From Candidatus Gastranaerophilales bacterium (lineage in GTDB: Bacteria; Cyanobacteriota; Vampirovibrionia; Gastranaerophilales; Gastranaerophilaceae): a DNA stretch of 50,011 bases. The position numbers were made by a program, and so were the translations under genes. Where the stretch lies: assembly GCA_944325555.1 (NCBI GenBank), contig CALVAN010000015.1, positions 1 to 50,011 on the forward strand, read 5' to 3'. This document shows positions 3,673 through 49,166 of the stretch, in pieces (the stretch's first letter is position 1; each line of letters starts with the position of its first letter). The notes under the pieces are model-generated. The model saw only the letters and a list, made by a program, of their open reading frames with translations, made no database searches and was not told the origin of the DNA.

Positions 3673-4731
3673 TTGAAAAAATTAAAACAGCACAAAGAAA
3701 AAATTATCGGATTTATTATAACCCTGATTTTTATAGCTCTAATTTGTTGGAACCTTGATTTTAAGCAGCTTATTGCGACATTTAAAATTTTTGATTACAA
3801 AGTATTGCTTATATTTGTACCGATGTACATTGCAGGATTGTACCTGCGTGGAGTAAGGTGGAAGTATCTTCTTTGCGACAGCGAAAAATTAACCGTAAAA
3901 GAAGCTTTCTTCGCCTTTACGACAGGAAACACATTGAACAGCTACCTTCCGGCACGTGCAGGCGATTTTTGGAGAGCTTTTCACATAGGCAAAAAGCTTG
4001 AAGAAAGCAAAATGAAAATACTCGGCTCAATTATCCTTGAAAGGATTATTGACGGTGTTTCGGTATTATTGATTCTGGCCTTTGCAGTTTTAACTTATTT
4101 TAAACACCCGTGGGTTTTAAAAATAACATATCTGGCTTCAGCCCTGTTTATTGGCAGCCTTGTGATGTTTTTCTTAATTTTTAAATTTAACAAAACAGCA
4201 TGGTTTTTCAATAAACTTGCAGCAATACCGGCTTTATCGAAGTTTGAGCCTGCTTTTATAAAAATTTCTGACGTTATAAACCGTTTTATGGAAGGTTTTC
4301 AGGCACTGAACAAGCCCAAGTGCCTGTTTATGGCATTTGCAACAAGCTGTCTTGCCTGGGGAATAGAATGTATCATTACTTATATTCTAATACTGGGATT
4401 CGGGCAGCATTACGGATTTTCAATCGCCTTCTTTATCATAAGTTTTATTGCCCTATCAACTATAATTCCGTCATCCTCTGTTTTTGTAGGACCTTATCAA
4501 TATGCATACATACTGGCACTGGGCATATACCATATAGAAAAATCCTACGCTCTCGGTATAGCTTTTATTCACCAGATAACAATAATGCTTACAATAACAG
4601 TTATATCAATGATTTACTTTCTTTTTACAAATACTAAAATTCAGGATATCAAAGAAGAAATAGAGGAAGAGATGGAAAGCCCTTCCGACAGCAAAGAAGG
4701 AATCGAGGCAGACAATGCAGGGAACGCCTAA
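3673..4731 (+). CDS. YbhN/AglD-type integral membrane protein (LPG synthase TM-domain family)
   Basis: A 352-residue protein with about eight hydrophobic segments and the pattern of the UPF0104 / lysylphosphatidylglycerol synthase transmembrane family: LRGVRWKYLL near residue 57, then GNTLNSYLPARAGDFWRA around 89-106, which is the family's most conserved region. Members are thought to handle lipid-linked substrates or act as flippases, but there is no synthase domain here. It starts with TTG just after the dehydrogenase stop, with AAAGG upstream. Its acidic C-terminal tail (EEIEEEME) overlaps the hydF start by 17 nt. Confidence 0.75.
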   Translation: MKKLKQHKEKIIGFIITLIFIALICWNLDFKQLIATFKIFDYKVLLIFVPMYIAGLYLRGVRWKYLLCDSEKLTVKEAFFAFTTGNTLNSYLPARAGDFWRAFHIGKKLEESKMKILGSIILERIIDGVSVLLILAFAVLTYFKHPWVLKITYLASALFIGSLVMFFLIFKFNKTAWFFNKLAAIPALSKFEPAFIKISDVINRFMEGFQALNKPKCLFMAFATSCLAWGIECIITYILILGFGQHYGFSIAFFIISFIALSTIIPSSSVFVGPYQYAYILALGIYHIEKSYALGIAFIHQITIMLTITVISMIYFLFTNTKIQDIKEEIEEEMESPSDSKEGIEADNAGNA

Positions 4732-5917
4732 AACAAACAGGCTGCACATAGGTATATTCGGCAAAAGAAATGCCGGCAAATCATCACTTTTAAACAGTCT
4801 TGTCAATCAGGATATTTCAATAGTATCGCCTACTGCAGGAACTACTACTGACCCTGTCGAAAAAACAATGGAATTTCTACCGCTCGGCCCTGTTGTTTTT
4901 ATTGATACAGCTGGAGTAGACGACATCGGAGATTTAGGGGAACAGAGGATTGAAAAAACAAAAAAAATCTTTGACAGAACTGATATTGCAGTAATAATCT
5001 GCGACTCAAACGGGTGGGATGAATACGAAAAAGCACTGTACAAAGAATTTGAAGAAAGAAAAATACCTGTTCTCGCTGTAATTAACAAACAGGATATTCA
5101 GGAAATATCGGACGAAAAACTGCAAAACATACAACAATATGTTAAAACTCCGCTAAAAACAAGCCTAAAATCAGGACGGGAAGTTGTTTACAGACTTAAA
5201 GAACAGCTTGTAAATGTTTGCCCCGATGATTTTATAACACCGCCCTCAATACTGGGCGACCTTGTACAGCCCAAAGATACGGTTGTACTCGTTATTCCCG
5301 TTGACAAAGAAGCCCCGAAAGGCAGAATAATCCTTCCTCAGGTGCAGGTGTTAAGAGATTTGCTTGATAACAGGTGCAAGGCATTTGTCACTCAGGATAG
5401 CGAGCTTAAAGAAACTCTTGAAGAACTAAAAGACATGCCAAGATTAGTAATAACCGACTCTCAGGCTTTTGCCTCAGTATCGCAAGATGTACCCGAAGAT
5501 ATTGAACTAACTTCATTTTCAATCCTTTTTGCAAGAATGAAAGGTGATTTAAAAGAATTTTATGAAGGCGCAAGACAAATAGACAAGCTTAAAGATAACG
5601 ATAAAGTTTTAATTTGCGAAAGCTGCTCGCACCACCAGATTGAAGATGATATAGCAAGAGTAAAAATTCCGAGATTGTTAACCCAAAAGACAGGCAAAAA
5701 GCTTGAATTTGTTTACCATTCAGGCCACGATTTTCCACAGGATTTAACGTCTTACTCTCTGTTAATTCACTGCGGAGCATGTATGACAAATCGAAGAGAA
5801 GTATTGTCCCGAATTATGAAATGCAAAAAGGCTGACTTGCCCATAACAAATTACGGCATTGTCATTTCATATTGTCTGGGCATTTTAGAACGTGCGCTTA
5901 AGCCGTTCAATCTTTAA
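4715..5917 (+). CDS. hydF: [FeFe]-hydrogenase maturation GTPase HydF
   Basis: HydF is the GTPase scaffold on which HydE and HydG build the diiron subcluster of the H-cluster before transfer to apo-HydA. The GTPase domain has the P-loop GKRNAGKSS near residue 12, the DTAG switch (about 67-70) and NKQD for guanine binding. The C-terminal cluster domain has CESCSH near residue 306 and HCGAC near residue 357, which hold the [4Fe-4S] cluster. At 400 residues it is the usual length. The start overlaps the preceding gene. HydE, HydG and the hydrogenase itself are not in this window. The gene implies fermentative hydrogen metabolism. Confidence 0.92.
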   Translation: MQGTPKTNRLHIGIFGKRNAGKSSLLNSLVNQDISIVSPTAGTTTDPVEKTMEFLPLGPVVFIDTAGVDDIGDLGEQRIEKTKKIFDRTDIAVIICDSNGWDEYEKALYKEFEERKIPVLAVINKQDIQEISDEKLQNIQQYVKTPLKTSLKSGREVVYRLKEQLVNVCPDDFITPPSILGDLVQPKDTVVLVIPVDKEAPKGRIILPQVQVLRDLLDNRCKAFVTQDSELKETLEELKDMPRLVITDSQAFASVSQDVPEDIELTSFSILFARMKGDLKEFYEGARQIDKLKDNDKVLICESCSHHQIEDDIARVKIPRLLTQKTGKKLEFVYHSGHDFPQDLTSYSLLIHCGACMTNRREVLSRIMKCKKADLPITNYGIVISYCLGILERALKPFNL

Positions 5918-5932
5918 ATTGTTTTTACAAAA

Positions 5933-5961
5933 TAGACATATTCAAAGAAAGTTAATATAAT
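5933..5961 (+). promoter_or_regulatory. Promoter of the RWYD protein-folE2-dapL operon
   Basis: TAGACA and a perfect TATAAT are separated by 17 bases, 30 bases before the start codon at 5992, which has a GAGG ribosome site. Confidence 0.65.
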
Positions 5962-5991
5962 CAAATAAAAGATACTAATGAGGAAATAAGA

Positions 5992-6324
5992 ATGACAGAA
6001 GGCAGACGCTGGTATGACAAAGATCCGGTTTTAAAAGAAGCACTTGAACTTTTAAGACTCCAAACAGACGAAACAAAGGCAGAAGCTGCAGATTACATAA
6101 TGAAGCTGCAAGAACAGGTTGCTGCTGACGTAATCGAACATTTATACGAAACAATCTCTAAATATCAGGGCAAAGGCAACCGCTGGTATGACAATGACCC
6201 TGTTATGATGAAAGCCATCGAAATGCTCAGACTTGCACCACCCAAAATGCAAAGAATTGCAGCTCTAAAACTGTTGCTTGCTCTGGAACAAAAATCAACA
6301 GAACAGCTTGACGATTTTAAATAA
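5992..6324 (+). CDS. Small protein with two RWYD repeats (paralogue of 48852-49166)
   Basis: I do not recognise a described family. The 110-residue soluble protein consists of two similar halves, each starting RWYDxDP (residues 6-12 and 64-70), followed by an amphipathic helix (KEALELLRL; MKAIEMLRLAP) and a second helix rich in Ala/Leu/Gln. It has no membrane segment, signal peptide or cysteines. A second protein with the same two-motif plan lies at 48852-49166. It begins the folE2-dapL operon behind its own promoter, with folE2 starting 11 nt after its stop. The paired motifs suggest an internally duplicated helical repeat used for binding; this is inference. Confidence 0.85.
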   Translation: MTEGRRWYDKDPVLKEALELLRLQTDETKAEAADYIMKLQEQVAADVIEHLYETISKYQGKGNRWYDNDPVMMKAIEMLRLAPPKMQRIAALKLLLALEQKSTEQLDDFK

Positions 6325-6335
6325 GAAAGATAAAT

Positions 6336-7145
6336 ATGAAAAGCCGTATAAAGGATTTGCCGCTCAGGGATGTCCAAAACCTTGCAGACAACAGAGGTAT
6401 TGATATCCAGAAAGTAGGCATCAAAAATGTAGATGTTCCCCTAATTATACAGAGAAAAGGTCAGGACAATCAGGTAGTTTATGCAAAAGCACAGATATGC
6501 GCTTCTCTTGATATGAATTTTAAGGGAACGCATATGTCTCGCTTTATGGAAATATTAAACGAATGGAGAGAAAAAGAACTTCTCGGCGTTGATATTAAAG
6601 GCTGCCTTGAAGCAATTAAAGCAAAACTCGGGGCTAAAGCGGCTCAGGTAAAATTTGTCTTTAAGTATTTTATAGAAAAAGAAGCTCCGGTTTCCAAACA
6701 AAAGTCACTTATGGCTTACGACTGTTCATTTGAAGGGATTCTTGAAGAAGATAACTACAAATTTTATCTCGGAGTCAAAGTACCGGTTACTACCCTTTGC
6801 CCTTGTTCAAAAGAAATATCCGACTACTCGGCACACAACCAGAGGGCGATAATAAAAGTTGTCATAAGCTACGATGAAACAGAACAAATCTGGTTAGAAG
6901 ATTTGATTTCCGAAATCGAAAAAACAGCCTCCTGTGAAGTATATCCTCTTTTAAAGCGAGAGGACGAAAAATACGTAACCGAACACGCTTACGACAACCC
7001 CAAATTTGTTGAAGATGTACTAAGGGATATCGTTTTAAAATTCAGAAACAATGAAAAAATAAAATATTTTGAAGCCGAGGTAGAATCACTTGAAAGTATT
7101 CACAATCACAGTGCCTGGGCATATCAGCTTGAATCAAAAGGATAA
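6336..7145 (+). CDS. folE2: GTP cyclohydrolase FolE2 (type IB)
   Basis: FolE2 opens GTP to 7,8-dihydroneopterin triphosphate, the first step towards folate (and queuosine in some bacteria), and replaces the zinc enzyme FolE. The sequence shows the family's landmarks: DVQNLADNRGIDIQKVGI at the N-terminus (a FolE2 hallmark), GTHMSRF around 66-72, the active-site cysteine in LCPCSKEIS (about 148-156), and AHNQR soon after. Length 269 is normal. It lies between the RWYD gene and dapL with gaps of 11 and 3 nt, so it is expressed with both. Confidence 0.93.
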   Translation: MKSRIKDLPLRDVQNLADNRGIDIQKVGIKNVDVPLIIQRKGQDNQVVYAKAQICASLDMNFKGTHMSRFMEILNEWREKELLGVDIKGCLEAIKAKLGAKAAQVKFVFKYFIEKEAPVSKQKSLMAYDCSFEGILEEDNYKFYLGVKVPVTTLCPCSKEISDYSAHNQRAIIKVVISYDETEQIWLEDLISEIEKTASCEVYPLLKREDEKYVTEHAYDNPKFVEDVLRDIVLKFRNNEKIKYFEAEVESLESIHNHSAWAYQLESKG

Positions 7146-7148
7146 AAA

Positions 7149-8396
7149 ATGAAAGAACTGTTTAATGAATATGTAAAATCAATTGATACATATATAATGT
7201 TTAGGATTAAACAGGAAGCTGCGAACCTCACGCCTGAACTTGAAGCAAAAGGCAGAGCACCTATTGCATTGGCTATGGGGGCACCGGTTGCACCACCGCC
7301 GCAATTTGTATATGACAAATTAACTGAAGCACTGAAAATACCGCAGATTCATACATATTCAACCCCCAAAGGCGAAGCTTTTTTTCTTGAAGCGATAGCT
7401 AAAAGAATGAAAAACAGATTCGGCGTTGAACTTGACCCCAAAACGGAAATATTCTCACTTATAGGTTCAAAAGAAGGACTCGCAAATTTTATAAGAGCAC
7501 TTATTAACCCGACAACAAATCCCGCCGAACAAGACGTAATACTTGTTCCGGATCCCGGATATGCGTCTTACACGCAGATGATAAAGACAAGCGGCGGAAA
7601 AAGCTACGGAATCCCCTTAACCAAAGCCGACAACTATATGCCGAATATGAACAAAATATGGCAAAAAATGCTTCAAGGCGGAATAAATCCGGCAAAAGTA
7701 AAAGCAATGGTTATAAACTATCCGTCAAACCCGCTAGGTGCAACCTGCACAAAAGAATATTTAAAACATATAGTTGATTTTTGCAGAGAAAAACAAATCT
7801 GGCTGATAAGTGACGCTGCCTATTGCGACATTTATTTTGACGAAAATCAAAAACCGCACAGCGTGCTTGAAATTGAAGGAGCAAAGGATGTTGCCGTTGA
7901 GTTTTACAGCTTTTCAAAACCGTATTCAATGACAGGCTTCAGACTCGGCTGGGTATGCGGCAACGCCGATGCAGTAGGAGCCTTCGGACGTCTAAAATCA
8001 ACTATAGACACAGGTCTTTTTAAAGCTCTGCAAAAATGCGCAGCAGAAGTTTTAAATGCAAAAGAAGGCGATGACTACATCAAAGCAGCAAACAAAAGTT
8101 TTAAAGAAAAGCAAATGATAGTTATAAACGGATTTAGAGAACTCGGCTGGCAAATAAAAGACGAAGATATACCGTCAGCCACATTCTATATATGGCTGCC
8201 AATACCGCCGAGATACAAAAAATCAACAGACTTTACCTCTGATGTTTTAAAAACCTCAGGTATTGTACTCGTTCCCGGAAATGCTTTTGGAAACAACGGT
8301 GAAGGATTTTTCCGTCTTTCAGCTGTAGCAAGTGATGACCAATTAAAAGAAACAATAAACCGACTTAAACAGGACGGCTTTGTGTATAACGTTTAA
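7149..8396 (+). CDS. dapL: LL-diaminopimelate aminotransferase (DapL-type class I aminotransferase)
   Basis: A 415-residue PLP enzyme of fold type I. DapL converts tetrahydrodipicolinate directly to LL-diaminopimelate for lysine and peptidoglycan; this route is typical of Cyanobacteria and relatives. Visible motifs are IGSKEGLANF, PDPGYASY, NYPSNPLGA, SDAAYCDIYFD and the lysine site SFSKPYSMTGFRLGW. The IGSKEG and SDAAY forms favour DapL/AlaC-type enzymes over aspartate aminotransferases, but an alanine-type specificity cannot be excluded. Aspartate kinase for the same pathway is at 34839-36098. The stop codon is shared back to back with a small convergent gene. Confidence 0.78.
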   Translation: MKELFNEYVKSIDTYIMFRIKQEAANLTPELEAKGRAPIALAMGAPVAPPPQFVYDKLTEALKIPQIHTYSTPKGEAFFLEAIAKRMKNRFGVELDPKTEIFSLIGSKEGLANFIRALINPTTNPAEQDVILVPDPGYASYTQMIKTSGGKSYGIPLTKADNYMPNMNKIWQKMLQGGINPAKVKAMVINYPSNPLGATCTKEYLKHIVDFCREKQIWLISDAAYCDIYFDENQKPHSVLEIEGAKDVAVEFYSFSKPYSMTGFRLGWVCGNADAVGAFGRLKSTIDTGLFKALQKCAAEVLNAKEGDDYIKAANKSFKEKQMIVINGFRELGWQIKDEDIPSATFYIWLPIPPRYKKSTDFTSDVLKTSGIVLVPGNAFGNNGEGFFRLSAVASDDQLKETINRLKQDGFVYNV

Positions 8397-8560
8397 TTGC
8401 TGAAACTTAATTTATTAGCCTGCACAAAGCTCATAAGCTCATTAATCTTATTTTGCAATGAATAATTATTTTGAATTTGTGAAGCTTTTTGCTTTAAGTT
8501 AAATAGTGCCGGAGTTGTATCAAACACAATATTCAACTCATTGTTGTTTTGATTGTCCAT
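8393..8560 (-). CDS. 55-residue Asn/Gln-rich hypothetical protein
   Basis: An uninterrupted frame from ATG at 8558-8560 to TAA at 8393-8395, preceded by AGAAGAG as a likely ribosome site. The product is hydrophilic and rich in Asn and Gln, with a predicted helical C-terminal half (KINELMSFVQANK). There is no membrane segment or recognised domain. Its stop codon overlaps the dapL stop in the tetramer TTAA, so the genes converge with no space for a terminator. It is too short for many gene callers. The intact frame and ribosome site support a real gene, but I cannot assign a function. Confidence 0.5.
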   Translation of the reverse strand: MDNQNNNELNIVFDTTPALFNLKQKASQIQNNYSLQNKINELMSFVQANKLSFSN

Positions 8561-8679
8561 TTGTACTCTTCTATTTTATAACTAAAACCATGTATATTAA
8601 TAAAAACAATTTAATGATTAAATTTTATAAATCAACACAAAATCGTAATATTTTTTTACAAAAATCAGAAATCACAAAT

Positions 8680-8708
8680 TTGTTAAAAAAAGACGGTTGG
8701 ATTATAAT
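8680..8708 (+). promoter_or_regulatory. Strong promoter giving a leaderless TPR-protein transcript
   Basis: TTGTTA and a perfect TATAAT have a 17-base spacer. The -10 ends only 6 bases before the ATG at 8715, so transcription should start at or next to the start codon. There is no Shine-Dalgarno sequence. Confidence 0.65.
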
Positions 8709-8714
8709 TTTGCC

Positions 8715-9845
8715 ATGCAAAAGATAAAAACAATCACTGTTATTACAACATTTTTGTTAGCAATAAATCAGGCTGCCGCACAGGTTCCGCCTGTGCCTCA
8801 ACCCCCGTCCAAACAACCGGCTGCAGTACAACAGCCAAAAGTTGAAATACACGAGGTAAAAAAACAAACATCTGCTCAAAATTTGCATCAGACTAAAACA
8901 ACCAATACCAAATCACAAACAAAACAACCCGTAAAAACTGATAATAAACTACAAAAACAATCCCCAAACACCCAACAAAAGCAAGTTAAGCAAACAACGC
9001 CGCAAAAAGCAGAGGACATTAAAACTACAGCAGATAAAAAGCCTTCTGTTCCTCAAAATACACAAAAAAAAGAAGCCAAGAAACAGGAAAACAAATTTAA
9101 AAACACTTTTAAAAATTTAAAACACAAGCCAAAGACAGAAAATCCCCAAGAAGAGCAACAGGCAGCAAAACAACAGAACAATCACACAAATAAACTGCAA
9201 CAAACTCCTCAAAATATAAAAAACGAACAAAAAGAAATCAAAAAAGAAACAATACAACCAAGACAGGAAGACACTAAAGAAAACGCAACAAACACTGTTC
9301 AAACAACAGCGGCTGTCTCCGATATAAAGCCGTCACAAATTAACGATATCAGAGAACAGGCAAAATTTTTGTATAATTCAAACAAACTCGATGAAGCAGA
9401 ACAGCTGTTCAACAAAATACCGGAAACCGAAAAAATTTCAGATGACTGGCTGTTTCTCGCAAACATAGCCCAAGACAGAGAAAAACCCATTGATGCTGTG
9501 TTTTTGTTAAAAAAAGCTATAGCAGCAGATGACAACAACTACAAAGCTCACTACAACCTCGGCAATCTGTACTTCTACGACAATAAAATAAATATGGCTA
9601 TGAACGAGTACAAAAAAGCAATAAAACTAAAAAAGGATTTTGCCTATGCTTATTACAACAAAGGCTGCTGCTATTTAAAAAAAGGCAATTGGTTCAACGC
9701 ACGCTACGAGTTTGGTCTGGCAATAAAAGCAAACCCCGAAGAACCTGCCTTTTATTACAACCTTGCTTACACCTGCAAAATGATGAAAAAAGATAAAAAA
9801 GCAAAAGAAGCTCTTGAAATGTATAACAAACTAATGATGCAATAA
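8715..9845 (+). CDS. Secreted or periplasmic TPR protein with disordered Gln/Lys linker
   Basis: Starting at 8715 the protein has 376 residues: a signal peptide (MQKIKTITVITTFLLAINQAAAQ, cut after AAA), a long Lys/Gln/Thr/Asn-rich disordered region (about 25-200), then three to four tetratricopeptide repeats (about 205-370) with YYNKGCCYLKKGNW- and FYYNLAYTCKMMKK-type helices. TPRs mediate protein contacts. I chose 8715 over the upstream TTG because it gives a clean signal peptide and the TTG lies inside the promoter. The partner is unknown; the linker length would let the TPR domain reach across the periplasm. Confidence 0.8.
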   Translation: MQKIKTITVITTFLLAINQAAAQVPPVPQPPSKQPAAVQQPKVEIHEVKKQTSAQNLHQTKTTNTKSQTKQPVKTDNKLQKQSPNTQQKQVKQTTPQKAEDIKTTADKKPSVPQNTQKKEAKKQENKFKNTFKNLKHKPKTENPQEEQQAAKQQNNHTNKLQQTPQNIKNEQKEIKKETIQPRQEDTKENATNTVQTTAAVSDIKPSQINDIREQAKFLYNSNKLDEAEQLFNKIPETEKISDDWLFLANIAQDREKPIDAVFLLKKAIAADDNNYKAHYNLGNLYFYDNKINMAMNEYKKAIKLKKDFAYAYYNKGCCYLKKGNWFNARYEFGLAIKANPEEPAFYYNLAYTCKMMKKDKKAKEALEMYNKLMMQ

Positions 9846-10970: not shown

Positions 10971-11495
10971 TTACTCGCCGAAAATAAACTTTTTGTAAGT
11001 TGAAAGCACATCGGTTATATCTTTGTTACCCCAGTCTGTGCCAAGTGCAGCATTATAACTTATTTTACCGTCCATTGTACCGTCATTGCCGGATGCATCC
11101 ATATAAGCAAATACTGCAGCCATTTCTTTGTCATCTATTGAACCGTCTTTGTTTGTATCGCAGTTTGCAAAAGAGTTGTTAAAAACATCCTGCATACCGG
11201 ATATGTTCATATCAACCTGTTCATTGAACATTTTTTGATAAACAGCCTTTTGCTCTTCAACATATTCGGACAATTCCATTTTACCGTTGTTATTTGAATC
11301 GTAGTTGGCGATTCTTGATTGTGCAATGTTTAAAACATCAATTTTATAGGCTTCGCCCTTTTTTTCCGCAGGCAAAGTTTTTATATCAACCTTCATAAAA
11401 TTAAAATCAGGTACACTTTGCCCGTTTAAGGCCTTATCATAGTTATCTTTGCTGGCAAACCAGTTTTCAAAACTTGAACCAAAATTAACAGTCAT
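10971..11495 (-). CDS. EF-hand calcium-binding protein
   Basis: A 174-residue acidic protein starting at 11495, behind a GGGGGGA ribosome site. Two canonical calcium loops are visible: DSNNNGKMELSE (about 83-94) and DTNKDGSIDDKE (about 123-134). A third, DASGNDGTMDGKIS (about 143-156), is longer and degenerate. It has no signal peptide or membrane segment. The open frame extends upstream to 11717, but that part runs through the structured leader and gives an implausible sequence, so I rejected the longer start. A calcium sensor or buffer role follows from the family; the partner is unknown. Confidence 0.88.
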   Translation of the reverse strand: MTVNFGSSFENWFASKDNYDKALNGQSVPDFNFMKVDIKTLPAEKKGEAYKIDVLNIAQSRIANYDSNNNGKMELSEYVEEQKAVYQKMFNEQVDMNISGMQDVFNNSFANCDTNKDGSIDDKEMAAVFAYMDASGNDGTMDGKISYNAALGTDWGNKDITDVLSTYKKFIFGE

Positions 11496-11574
11496 AAATC
11501 CCCCCGTGAATAGTTGATATATTAATAAAAACAAATTAAGAAAAATAATTGCGAAAATTGATAAATATTTCATA

Positions 11575-11748
11575 TAGTCAACTGCCACCGGCAACTCATT
11601 GAACAGGTGCAATAAACAAGTACGATATTGGCTGTATAACATGGGCACCTGCAACAAGTGCAAGGGGTCACTTCCGTAAAATGCTAGACTCGGCGCCACT
11701 CGCACTCCGTGTACCACTCCTACAAGCGAGGTCCCTCTCAGACATTTT
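11575..11748 (-). ncRNA. GC-rich structured leader RNA upstream of the EF-hand gene
   Basis: About 170 nt stand out as far more GC-rich and palindromic than flanking sequence. On the minus strand I see CTCGC...GCGAG, the hairpin CTTGCA-CTTGT-TGCAGG, GGTGC...GCACC around a 30-nt arm, and TGCC-GGT-GGCA near the 3' end. A promoter fits just upstream (11755-11783), and an AT-rich 80-nt stretch separates it from the EF-hand start. It has no tRNA, RNase P, SRP or tmRNA hallmarks that I can find. It could be a riboswitch-like leader or an independent RNA such as a 6S-type RNA. Confidence 0.5.
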
Positions 11749-11797: not shown

Positions 11798-12615
11798 AGT
11801 GATAATATTTATTATGTAAATCTAAAAATAATATTGTATTTTTAGATTAATCTATGGAGTTGCTTTATTAGATACTGCGTAAGCAGTGAAGCGGCTCTGC
11901 CGCCGGAACTAAATAAAAATCCGACCTTTGTGAAGAGAATTACAGAAAGTTTCACAAACAACAACAAGCGAGGTTTGTTTGAGGGCTATGTAATTATAAC
12001 AATCACTTTAATATATCAAAAGAGAGCAATTTATATAGCCCGAGTTGCCGAGCACAGGTTTGTGTTACTTTCTGTATGAACGGAACAGTAGGTCGGGAGT
12101 TTCTTGGGCTCCACCCGTTCTTTGCATCAAAGAATGGGTGGAACATAAAGCAGAAATTTATGTCTTTATTTTTTTATGTTCATTTCTTTTCTTTTGTATC
12201 TTGCAGGCAAAAGAAAAGAAACGAACCAAAGAAAAGAAAACCGGCGCTTATCAAAAGAAACAGTTAAGTGTTTTATCAAAGATTTTGCCGTGACAAGCTA
12301 CGGTCAAAATCTTCTCAAAACACAACTGTTTCTAGCCAAAGTTCCGTCAGGGCTCCGCCCCGAACCCCCTACGGCTCACATTGTGTGAGCCGTGTATATA
12401 ATAAAATAATCCGTCATTCTGAGCGAAGCGAAGAATCTACTTTCTATTTGCCGCTTAACGTTATTTTTTATACGAAGCTATTACAAAGGTCGGATTTTTA
12501 TTTAGTTCCGGCGGCAGAGCCGCTTCACTGCTTGCGCAGTTATAGTTTTAACCGTTTATATTGAATTATATATAATGTTAGCTATACTCAGATTTACATA
12601 ATAAATATTATCACT
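11798..12615. mobile_element. Element B: 818-bp nested inverted-repeat element without transposase
   Basis: The outer ends are a perfect 26-bp inverted repeat (11798-11823 and 12590-12615; begins AGTGATAATATTTATTATGT). A second inverted pair of 58 bp lies inside it (11874-11931 and 12483-12540) with one mismatch. Between them are hairpins at 12111-12141, 12178-12226 (19-bp arms, 11-nt loop), 12275-12312 and 12371-12393, and a short palindrome at 12414-12439. No convincing coding frame or target duplication is seen. About 370 bp of the core recurs inverted in element C. The form is that of a MITE-like non-autonomous element, but its internal structure is far richer than usual. Confidence 0.75.
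12414..12439. repeat. Short ATTCTGAG-type palindrome inside element B
   Basis: ATTCT and AGAAT flank GAGCGAAGCGA. The same unit is at 49836-49861 in the opposite orientation, and a GC-shifted version is at 615-648. Similar short palindromes are widespread in bacterial intergenic DNA. Confidence 0.65.
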
Positions 12616-47974: not shown

Positions 47975-48862
47975 TTACAAAGACCAAGCCGGATCTAATT
48001 TACCAAATTTAACATTATTGTAATAATAAGTTAAGATTTGATAAGCACTATAGCCGTTTTGAGCAAGCTTATTTGCACCATGCTGACTCATGCCGAGCCC
48101 ATGCCCGTTCTTTTTTATACCTTCATCAAAAGAAGGAACCGATTTTAAAAACGGTAAATCTTTATTCCAAACCGCACCGGAGTTTGTTGTATGTCCGCCT
48201 GCAGAAGCCGAATAATACGCAGGAATAACTTTTTGGTTGTATGTTATAACTATGCCTTTAGTCTCTATGACAGCACTGTTTGTTGTAGCGGTTTCGGAAG
48301 AAGCGCCGCCGTATGCCTGATCCTCAGGAGTATCTTTAAGATCATACCCGTGAGATGCTCTCTTGCCCTTGTTTGCAATTGCATAGCTGCGTGCAGCAAT
48401 TGCCTGAGCTTTAAGCGCCTCATAGCTCCATTTTGACGGCATTTCAGAAGGAACGACTCCCAAAAGATAATCTTCTAACGGCAAATTATTTATTACAACA
48501 AGTTTACCGCCTCTGTTTTCAATTATAAATTCGCCTCTGTACCATCTTCTTTTTGTGGAAATAAACCCTTTGTCATTTGGTTTTATAACTATTCTGTTGA
48601 TATTTAAATTAAACCATTGATTTTGCAATTCTATAGAAATAGTGTTGCCGCTCGCCTTAAAAGGATACGCTTTCATTGCGGAAAGTTTATAAAAAGCTTT
48701 GTTATGCAGGGGGCTTATAAGCTGAGCGTCTTTGCTCGTACCGACGCTAACCTGAGAAGCACCGTCTATCAAACCTATTTTCATTGCTTCTGCTTTAGAT
48801 GAAGCACAAAAAGGTATGGCTATTATTGTAAATAATATTAATGTAATTTTACTAAGTTTCAT
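47975..48862 (-). CDS. SpoIID/LytB-domain cell-wall protein
   Basis: From the ATG at 48862 the protein has 295 residues: a signal peptide (KLSKITLILFTIIAIPFCASSKAEA), an N-terminal beta region, then the SpoIID/LytB domain. That domain shows LPLEDYLLGVVPSEMPSKW, ALKAQAIAARSYAIAN, YSASAGGHT and the end motif GHGLGMSQHGANKLAQNGYSAYQILTYYY. SpoIID is a lytic transglycosylase acting on denuded glycan; LytB-type relatives modulate amidases. It is not tied to sporulation here. The start overlaps the end of the RWYD gene by 11 nt, so the two are coupled. Confidence 0.9.
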   Translation of the reverse strand: MKLSKITLILFTIIAIPFCASSKAEAMKIGLIDGASQVSVGTSKDAQLISPLHNKAFYKLSAMKAYPFKASGNTISIELQNQWFNLNINRIVIKPNDKGFISTKRRWYRGEFIIENRGGKLVVINNLPLEDYLLGVVPSEMPSKWSYEALKAQAIAARSYAIANKGKRASHGYDLKDTPEDQAYGGASSETATTNSAVIETKGIVITYNQKVIPAYYSASAGGHTTNSGAVWNKDLPFLKSVPSFDEGIKKNGHGLGMSQHGANKLAQNGYSAYQILTYYYNNVKFGKLDPAWSL

Positions 48863-49166
48863 TTTGTAATGTTTCTGATTTTTCAAGAAAAGAAATAATA
48901 TCTATTGCAATTTGTTTGCGGGTTTCATCATCCGCTGCTTTTAAGTATCCGAAGGCCTCGGACAACTCTTCATTGATATCATACCATCTGTGCAGTACAT
49001 AATTAAAAGCACCGAATAAATTGTTCTGCAAAATTACTCCATGATCCTGTGCTTTTTCTTTTATCAGTTTTGCGCATTCAAGCTGAGTATCCTGTTTGGA
49101 ATTTTGTATAAGGCTGACTGCCAGACTGATTGTCGGTTCTTGGTCGTACCAACGTTTGTTATTCAT
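48852..49166 (-). CDS. Small protein with two RWYD repeats (paralogue of 5992-6324)
   Basis: A 104-residue soluble protein with KRWYDQEP (residues 4-11) and HRWYDINEE (59-67), the same two-motif plan as 5992-6324, followed each time by an amphipathic helix and a second helix. The motifs are 55 residues apart here and 58 there. Outside the motifs identity is low, so the paralogues are old. It precedes the SpoIID gene in a coupled pair behind GGGAGA and a strong promoter. No known family comes to mind. Confidence 0.85.
   Translation of the reverse strand: MNNKRWYDQEPTISLAVSLIQNSKQDTQLECAKLIKEKAQDHGVILQNNLFGAFNYVLHRWYDINEELSEAFGYLKAADDETRKQIAIDIISFLEKSETLQNET

Follow-up and report, generated by a model that had tools for sequence, protein, structure and literature searches.

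In SinI/SinR-type pairs, an XRE regulator and a small protein share a helical interaction domain. MurA carries out the first committed step of peptidoglycan synthesis. In Listeria the degradation of MurA by ClpCP is regulated and is controlled by ReoM (PMC7286690). Here we compare with these systems a family of small, predicted helical proteins of the Gastranaerophilales that carry a pair of RWYD motifs.

The window, a stretch of 50,011 nucleotides, is the whole contig C15 of a 2.32 Mb genome. A sequence-only reading of it had pointed out two small proteins of 110 and 104 amino acids, and both open reading frames are present as described. We call them P1 and P2 and list them with the features of their loci.

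4715..5917, plus strand: hydF (TIGR03918, 563.6 bits, cut-off 325.55)
5992..6324, plus strand: P1, 110-aa paired-RWYD protein of group III, with a Shine-Dalgarno-like AGGAAA upstream (by eye)
6007..6018, plus strand: RWYD motif, P1 repeat 1 (P1 residues 6-9)
6181..6192, plus strand: RWYD motif, P1 repeat 2 (P1 residues 64-67)
6336..7145, plus strand: folE2, GTP cyclohydrolase FolE2 (NCBIfam NF010200, 281.9 bits, cut-off 215)
7149..8396, plus strand: class I/II aminotransferase, DapL-like, under the NCBIfam cut-offs (best 373 versus 507 bits)
47975..48862, minus strand: SpoIID/LytB-domain protein with a signal-peptide-like start (TIGR02669, 204.2 bits, cut-off 83.3)
48852..49166, minus strand: P2, 104-aa paired-RWYD protein of group IV (open reading frame, homology to P1)
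48978..48989, minus strand: RWYD motif, P2 repeat 2 (translated sequence)
49143..49154, minus strand: RWYD motif, P2 repeat 1 (translated sequence)

The two motifs of a protein are 58 (P1) and 55 (P2) residues apart, counted from Arg to Arg, in line with the 55-58 reported before. P2 does overlap the SpoIID-domain gene, by 11 nt at its end, and the spoIID start is likely the ATG at 48862. Both proteins had been placed at the head of different operons, which for P1 is not certain, with hydF ending 74 nt upstream on the same strand. hydF likewise lies upstream of the P1 relative in L193, L209, L215 and L243. The dN of P1 is 0.055-0.068 against a dS of 1.0-2.2 (four same-group pairs) and that of P2 is 0.10-0.12 against 1.6 (two pairs), thus both are real genes under purifying selection.

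One repeat is shared by the two ends of the contig (window 123-196 and 49938-50011; 93% identity across 74 nt), so contig assembly probably stopped at a dispersed repeat. Fragments of a similar repeat, in translation, are also present near 12045-12564 and on the contigs C8 and C55. The EF-hand protein (Pfam: PF00036) at window 10971-11717 on the minus strand has an N-terminal extension of its open reading frame that resembles the repeat-derived reading frames elsewhere, and its true start probably lies further inside.

Across all six reading frames of the window, RWYD is encoded exactly four times, with two motifs in P1 and two in P2. The idea that the two proteins share only this motif proved too narrow, as they align in BLASTP (E 6e-10) across 102 residues with 24% identity. 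The two repeats of the family are themselves homologous (hhalign 99.4%, E 1.4e-21, 42 columns), thus P1 and P2 are internal duplications. The duplicated unit is RWYD plus two helices, about 42 residues in all.

In total 248 distinct members were collected; we removed one that lacks RWY and shortened long N-termini. The alignment A3 consists of 94 rows from 115 representatives, excluding rows above 150 amino acids, single-unit XRE pieces and the proteins from L121, L153, L158 and L278. Mean column identity across these 94 diverse rows is 22%, and the two RWYD motifs alone are nearly invariant. R6, W7 and Y8 of repeat 1 are found in 94 of 94 rows and D9 in 93, while in repeat 2 R64 is found in 94, W65 in 92, Y66 in 91 and D67 in 90. 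The motif spacing differs by paralogous group, being mostly 55-56 in group IV, 56-57 in group I, 65 in group II and 58 in group III.

AlphaFold gave models of P1 (pLDDT 78.7, pTM 0.65; A3, 94 rows) and of P2 (pLDDT 85.6, pTM 0.78; A4, 32 rows of group IV only), each with a weak linker. A3 includes rows of the group of P2, so the P1 model is not independent of that group. In both models a short turn or short helix is predicted at WYD, followed by two helices, of about 11 and about 17 residues, and by a variable linker, after which the pair is repeated; P1 has an extra predicted helix in the linker. The two proteins are therefore modelled with the same helical layout and not with unrelated folds. 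No signal peptide was found in the members read by eye.

The family had been called undescribed, and this holds: profile searches of Pfam, NCBIfam and PDB sequences gave no convincing relative. Pfam and NCBIfam scans of P1, P2 and other members, as well as a PHROGs scan of members, gave scattered weak matches only. Foldseek searches of the PDB with the two models found no match at E<=0.001 (24 and 52 at E<=10), and the best VIA match, to acyl-CoA-binding protein (Z 4.0), is within the stated noise for helical models. The PDB sequence matches (4rv1 with 5.5e-11, 4hxt and others) add up many weak hits to designed armadillo repeats and indicate no more than amphipathic helices, though the helical layout may still form a superhelical repeat fold. 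The best single-repeat i-Evalue is 45 (4rv1), which is not significant, and HEAT and Arm families are absent among the Pfam matches of 16 members at E<=0.1. One further candidate from the window's genome (L005), without RWYD and a HEAT-type protein by eye, was dropped. The literature search found nothing on an 'RWYD motif' and, among the whole-word 'RWYD' matches listed, only unrelated public health work. Judged from the listed titles, no paper on the clade deals with the paired-RWYD family. With no sequence family or solved fold found in these searches, the protein family appears new; its mechanism could still be of a known kind.

A mobile-element origin was also rejected: P1 and the L196 protein are without match in phages and plasmids, and P2 is without match in viral_contigs. 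PADLOC returned weak, scattered one-member matches only (best 0.00034) and no convincing anti-phage defence model. Further points against anti-phage defence are that no mobile context was found and that every sampled genome of the window's family has a match, with P2 matching in 146 of 146 genomes and 41 of 41 genera.

P1 and P2 had been taken as two copies, which is right for the window; the genome has seven members, namely P1, P2, two on C4 and one each on C8, C18 and C55, the last found again on C58. Both of these short contigs, L104 (G000 C55) and L008 (G000 C58), have the same RWYD-SDR segment, perhaps as an assembly duplicate. Seven groups of the family are present in this genome and also in G384, which belongs to another family of the order. 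In a check of 14 genomes, several of them fetched in part, group I was found in 14, group IV in at least 13 and group II in at least 9.

In a sample of the phylum, a profile of 16 rows finds 174 of 386 genomes at E<=0.001. Those without a match are eight genomes of family f4 and one of f6, both in the same class, and all 203 genomes from other classes. Two of 11 f4 genomes gave weak matches at E<=1, neither with RWYD and one LigA-like (DNA ligase) by eye, and f4 is counted as 0 of 11. All 18 genomes of the order of G388 match, each of them between 2 and 17 times at E<=1. In this Vampirovibrionales-type order, group VI-like copies are multiplied (L145, L147, L149, L150 and L151) and have acquired a C-terminal tail, often with a GMR or GMK stretch close to its end.

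A scan of public contigs gave at least 113 stretches, of which L178, L232 and L274 are without a member. Among the matches listed, double-RWYD proteins outside the class come from two Psychromonas species and from records titled Desulfurivibrionaceae, Deltaproteobacteria, Spirochaetes and Fibrobacteres. A profile of six such proteins aligns with the group of P2 (hhalign 97%, E 1e-10). Of the two Psychromonas genomes, one has 3 matches and the other 4. The query genome itself is the only one of 321 genomes to match in the class of one Psychromonas; with the query genome included, 2 of 297 genomes match in the phylum of the Desulfurivibrionaceae record and 14 of 150 in that of the Fibrobacteres record. 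The family is thus fixed in two orders of a single class, and its occurrence elsewhere (Psychromonas, Fibrobacterota, Desulfobacterota, Spirochaetes) is patchy. Seven records titled Fusobacterium, Muribaculaceae, Acinetobacter or Heliobacteriaceae (L195, L197, L203, L241, L254, L255 and L264) contain proteins of group I or II that closely resemble those of Gastranaerophilales, and these titles are probably wrong for the assemblies.

We sorted the members into eight groups by nearest seed and iterated profiles, not by a tree, with seven seeds from the window's genome and one from Psychromonas. The group counts below are unique protein sequences, many of them closely related and not independent events, and members at locus edges were kept.

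Group I has the tightest link, being directly downstream of murA in 47 of 49 cases; both misses (L251 and L278) are at locus edges. The MurA identity is secure (TIGR01072, 546.9 bits, cut-off 392.7). The murA and group I reading frames overlap in 38 of the 47, with start codons set by rule, so that the 17-nt murA overlap may shift. Among 60 larger loci, murA precedes all 12 group I genes, across families f1, f2, f3, f5 and f44. This link is what speaks most for proteolysis adaptors, which would deliver the neighbouring enzyme to a Clp-type protease or protect it there. The published ReoM control of the ClpCP degradation of MurA (PMC7286690) would be the model. No such adaptor was matched in Pfam or NCBIfam. 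To our knowledge, no neighbour other than MurA is a regulated protease substrate, and we consider adaptors of this kind quite unlikely. The frame overlaps with murA and spoIID would suit a chaperone or assembly factor, which as a helical clamp would aid folding or oligomerisation of the co-translated enzyme. MurA and FolE2 fold without an RWYD partner in other bacteria, and neither the XRE fusion described below nor the exported SpoIID neighbour fits well, so we give this role just as little credence.

Group III, the group of P1, is upstream of folE2 in 20 of 23 cases. The exceptions are L115, where murF is next, and the divergent and perhaps misassigned proteins of L153 and L158. P1 had been described as leading a folE2-dapL operon, of which folE2 stands, and the product called DapL is under the NCBIfam cut-offs. 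A DapL-like gene is beside the group III gene in the window, L094, L193, L209, L215 and L265 only, some loci being too short to tell. The conserved partner of P1 is folE2, not dapL.

Group II is downstream of a FixX-like ferredoxin in 36 and of a FixC-like oxidoreductase in 33 of 62 cases. Group IV, with P2, is upstream of spoIID in 22 of 57 cases; its place in other genera is beside a TIGR03960 radical-SAM gene or at some other site. Group V is upstream of an SDR gene in 5 and of acpS in 2 of 12 cases. No common neighbour of group VI was found among the probes (TcdA-like 1 of 13, AcpS 1 of 13), and the 23 members of group VIII, outside the class, have none of 16 probed neighbours and adjoin unrelated genes. 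The names FixC, SDR and TcdA are subfamily-level and below NCBIfam cut-offs, and a gene named WecA/MraY in L137 passed no cut-off.

DapL and SpoIID had suggested a link to the cell wall. Through DapL this link is not supported, as the gene is not conserved beside P1; it is partly upheld by murA beside group I and by spoIID beside 22 of 57 group IV genes, to which the murF gene after the group III gene of L115 may be added. Peptidoglycan is not the common denominator, because other paralogues adjoin fixCX, cobO and the SDR gene, and folE2 adjoins group III. The peptidoglycan idea is thus right for murA, perhaps for spoIID and not for P1. A role of the family in the cell wall only is not supported, and we hold a peptidoglycan-specific family to be very unlikely.

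The position of the genes directly beside or overlapping the linked genes would also fit RNA-binding proteins that regulate translation of their own operon. Groups I to V are acidic, with a median pI of 4.5-5.1 in groups II to V and 5.9 in group I, and the Rfam scan of window 4500-9000 gave no match. We regard such autoregulation as highly improbable.

Group VII differs in architecture, as it combines an XRE HTH_3 domain with one RWYD unit. It is upstream of cobO (Pfam: PF02572) in 8 of 9 cases, and all nine XRE-RWYD sequences carry a single unit. Examples directly before cobO come from two families of the order (L105:5644-5991 and L112:5355-5708), and the HTH_3 match of these two is confined to the N-terminal part. 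The full-length form is found in only 8 of 78 sampled genomes and therefore cannot be the general partner of the small RWYD proteins. No RWYD unit fused to a neighbouring enzyme was seen among the members, and in 20 further regions, most of them picked for weak or odd matches, XRE was still the sole domain partner. XRE-class proteins normally bind DNA as a dimer, which would restore the RWYD pair.

Our preferred reading, to which we give a probability of roughly one in three, is that the family consists of small dedicated cytosolic regulators or adaptors, each acting on the pathway of its own operon through a shared RWYD-pair site. The two RWYD motifs would together form one site that binds a shared partner or a small ligand, and recognition of the adjoining gene's product or pathway would fall to the variable helices and the linker. 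A single signal might then act on MurA, FolE2, the FixC/FixX-like electron-transfer pair, SpoIID and others. As for the XRE fusion, dimerisation of the DNA-binding protein would bring two single units together, and the same input would thereby reach transcription. We favour a regulator or adaptor over an enzyme because the RWYD pair is constant while the neighbours differ, and because of the XRE fusion. The different linked enzymes together with the constant pair suggest a common site with group-specific surroundings.

Several results agree with the regulator or adaptor reading: the near invariance of the RWYD motifs alone, the homology of the repeats, the single-unit XRE form that fits a functional pair, the locking of groups to operons, the acidic pI and the presence of seven groups in each of two genomes of different families. 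Other results weigh against it. SpoIID looks exported from its signal-peptide-like start, and a cytosolic P2 could not act on the mature protein. The 23 members outside the class are without the probed neighbours, groups IV, V and VI are partly or weakly tied, enzyme fusions were not seen, and the models reach a pLDDT of 79 (P1) and 86 (P2) with weak linkers. Moreover, gene order can be inherited without interaction.

That R, W, Y and D are invariant in proteins otherwise little conserved, and that the motifs are paired, the one-unit XRE form included, would also fit a ligand sensor. Here the RWYD pair would bind one small molecule, putatively through stacking by Trp/Tyr and contacts by Arg/Asp of the kind found in nucleotide sites; the proteins would simply report it, with the neighbour as client of the signal. 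No known nucleotide-binding model was matched by the members scanned, and we think a ligand sensor possible but unlikely. A wider version of the regulator or adaptor reading, which we find rather doubtful, would make the RWYD pair a class-wide plug-in receptor module, with separate copies connected through gene fusion or through their place in an operon to cell-wall, folate/pterin, electron-transfer, cobalamin and lipid-type genes. One common signal would then adjust all of them, at the protein level through the double-RWYD proteins and at transcription through XRE-RWYD. If the regulator or adaptor reading is true, up to seven groups of one unmodelled family are a missing regulatory layer of a whole class, tied to several core pathways in common, mostly uncultured gut bacteria. 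The murA link is directly testable.

Compared with known systems, the family resembles armadillo and HEAT proteins in its amphipathic helical units, and its profile picks up designed armadillo repeats through summed weak matches. It differs from them in that the RWYD motif falls outside the matched part and no Foldseek match reaches E<=0.001. With ReoM/IreB of Firmicutes, the group I protein shares a tie to MurA (PMC7286690), here one of gene adjacency. The sequences of P1, P2 and the group I protein of L128 gave no match to the ReoM/IreB family in Pfam or NCBIfam, and the RWYD family differs in its two RWYD units, in its folE2, fixCX and cobO paralogues and in its phylum. No Sin-type domain was matched in Pfam or NCBIfam at E<=1 by P1, P2 or the L105 and L112 proteins. 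The likeness to SinI/SinR is that a domain of an XRE regulator recurs in small helical proteins that stand alone in the same genome (L105 and its stand-alone paralogues), whereas the RWYD family has units of about 42 residues, mostly arranged as tandem pairs, reaches 17 matches in a genome and is linked to genes of enzymes.
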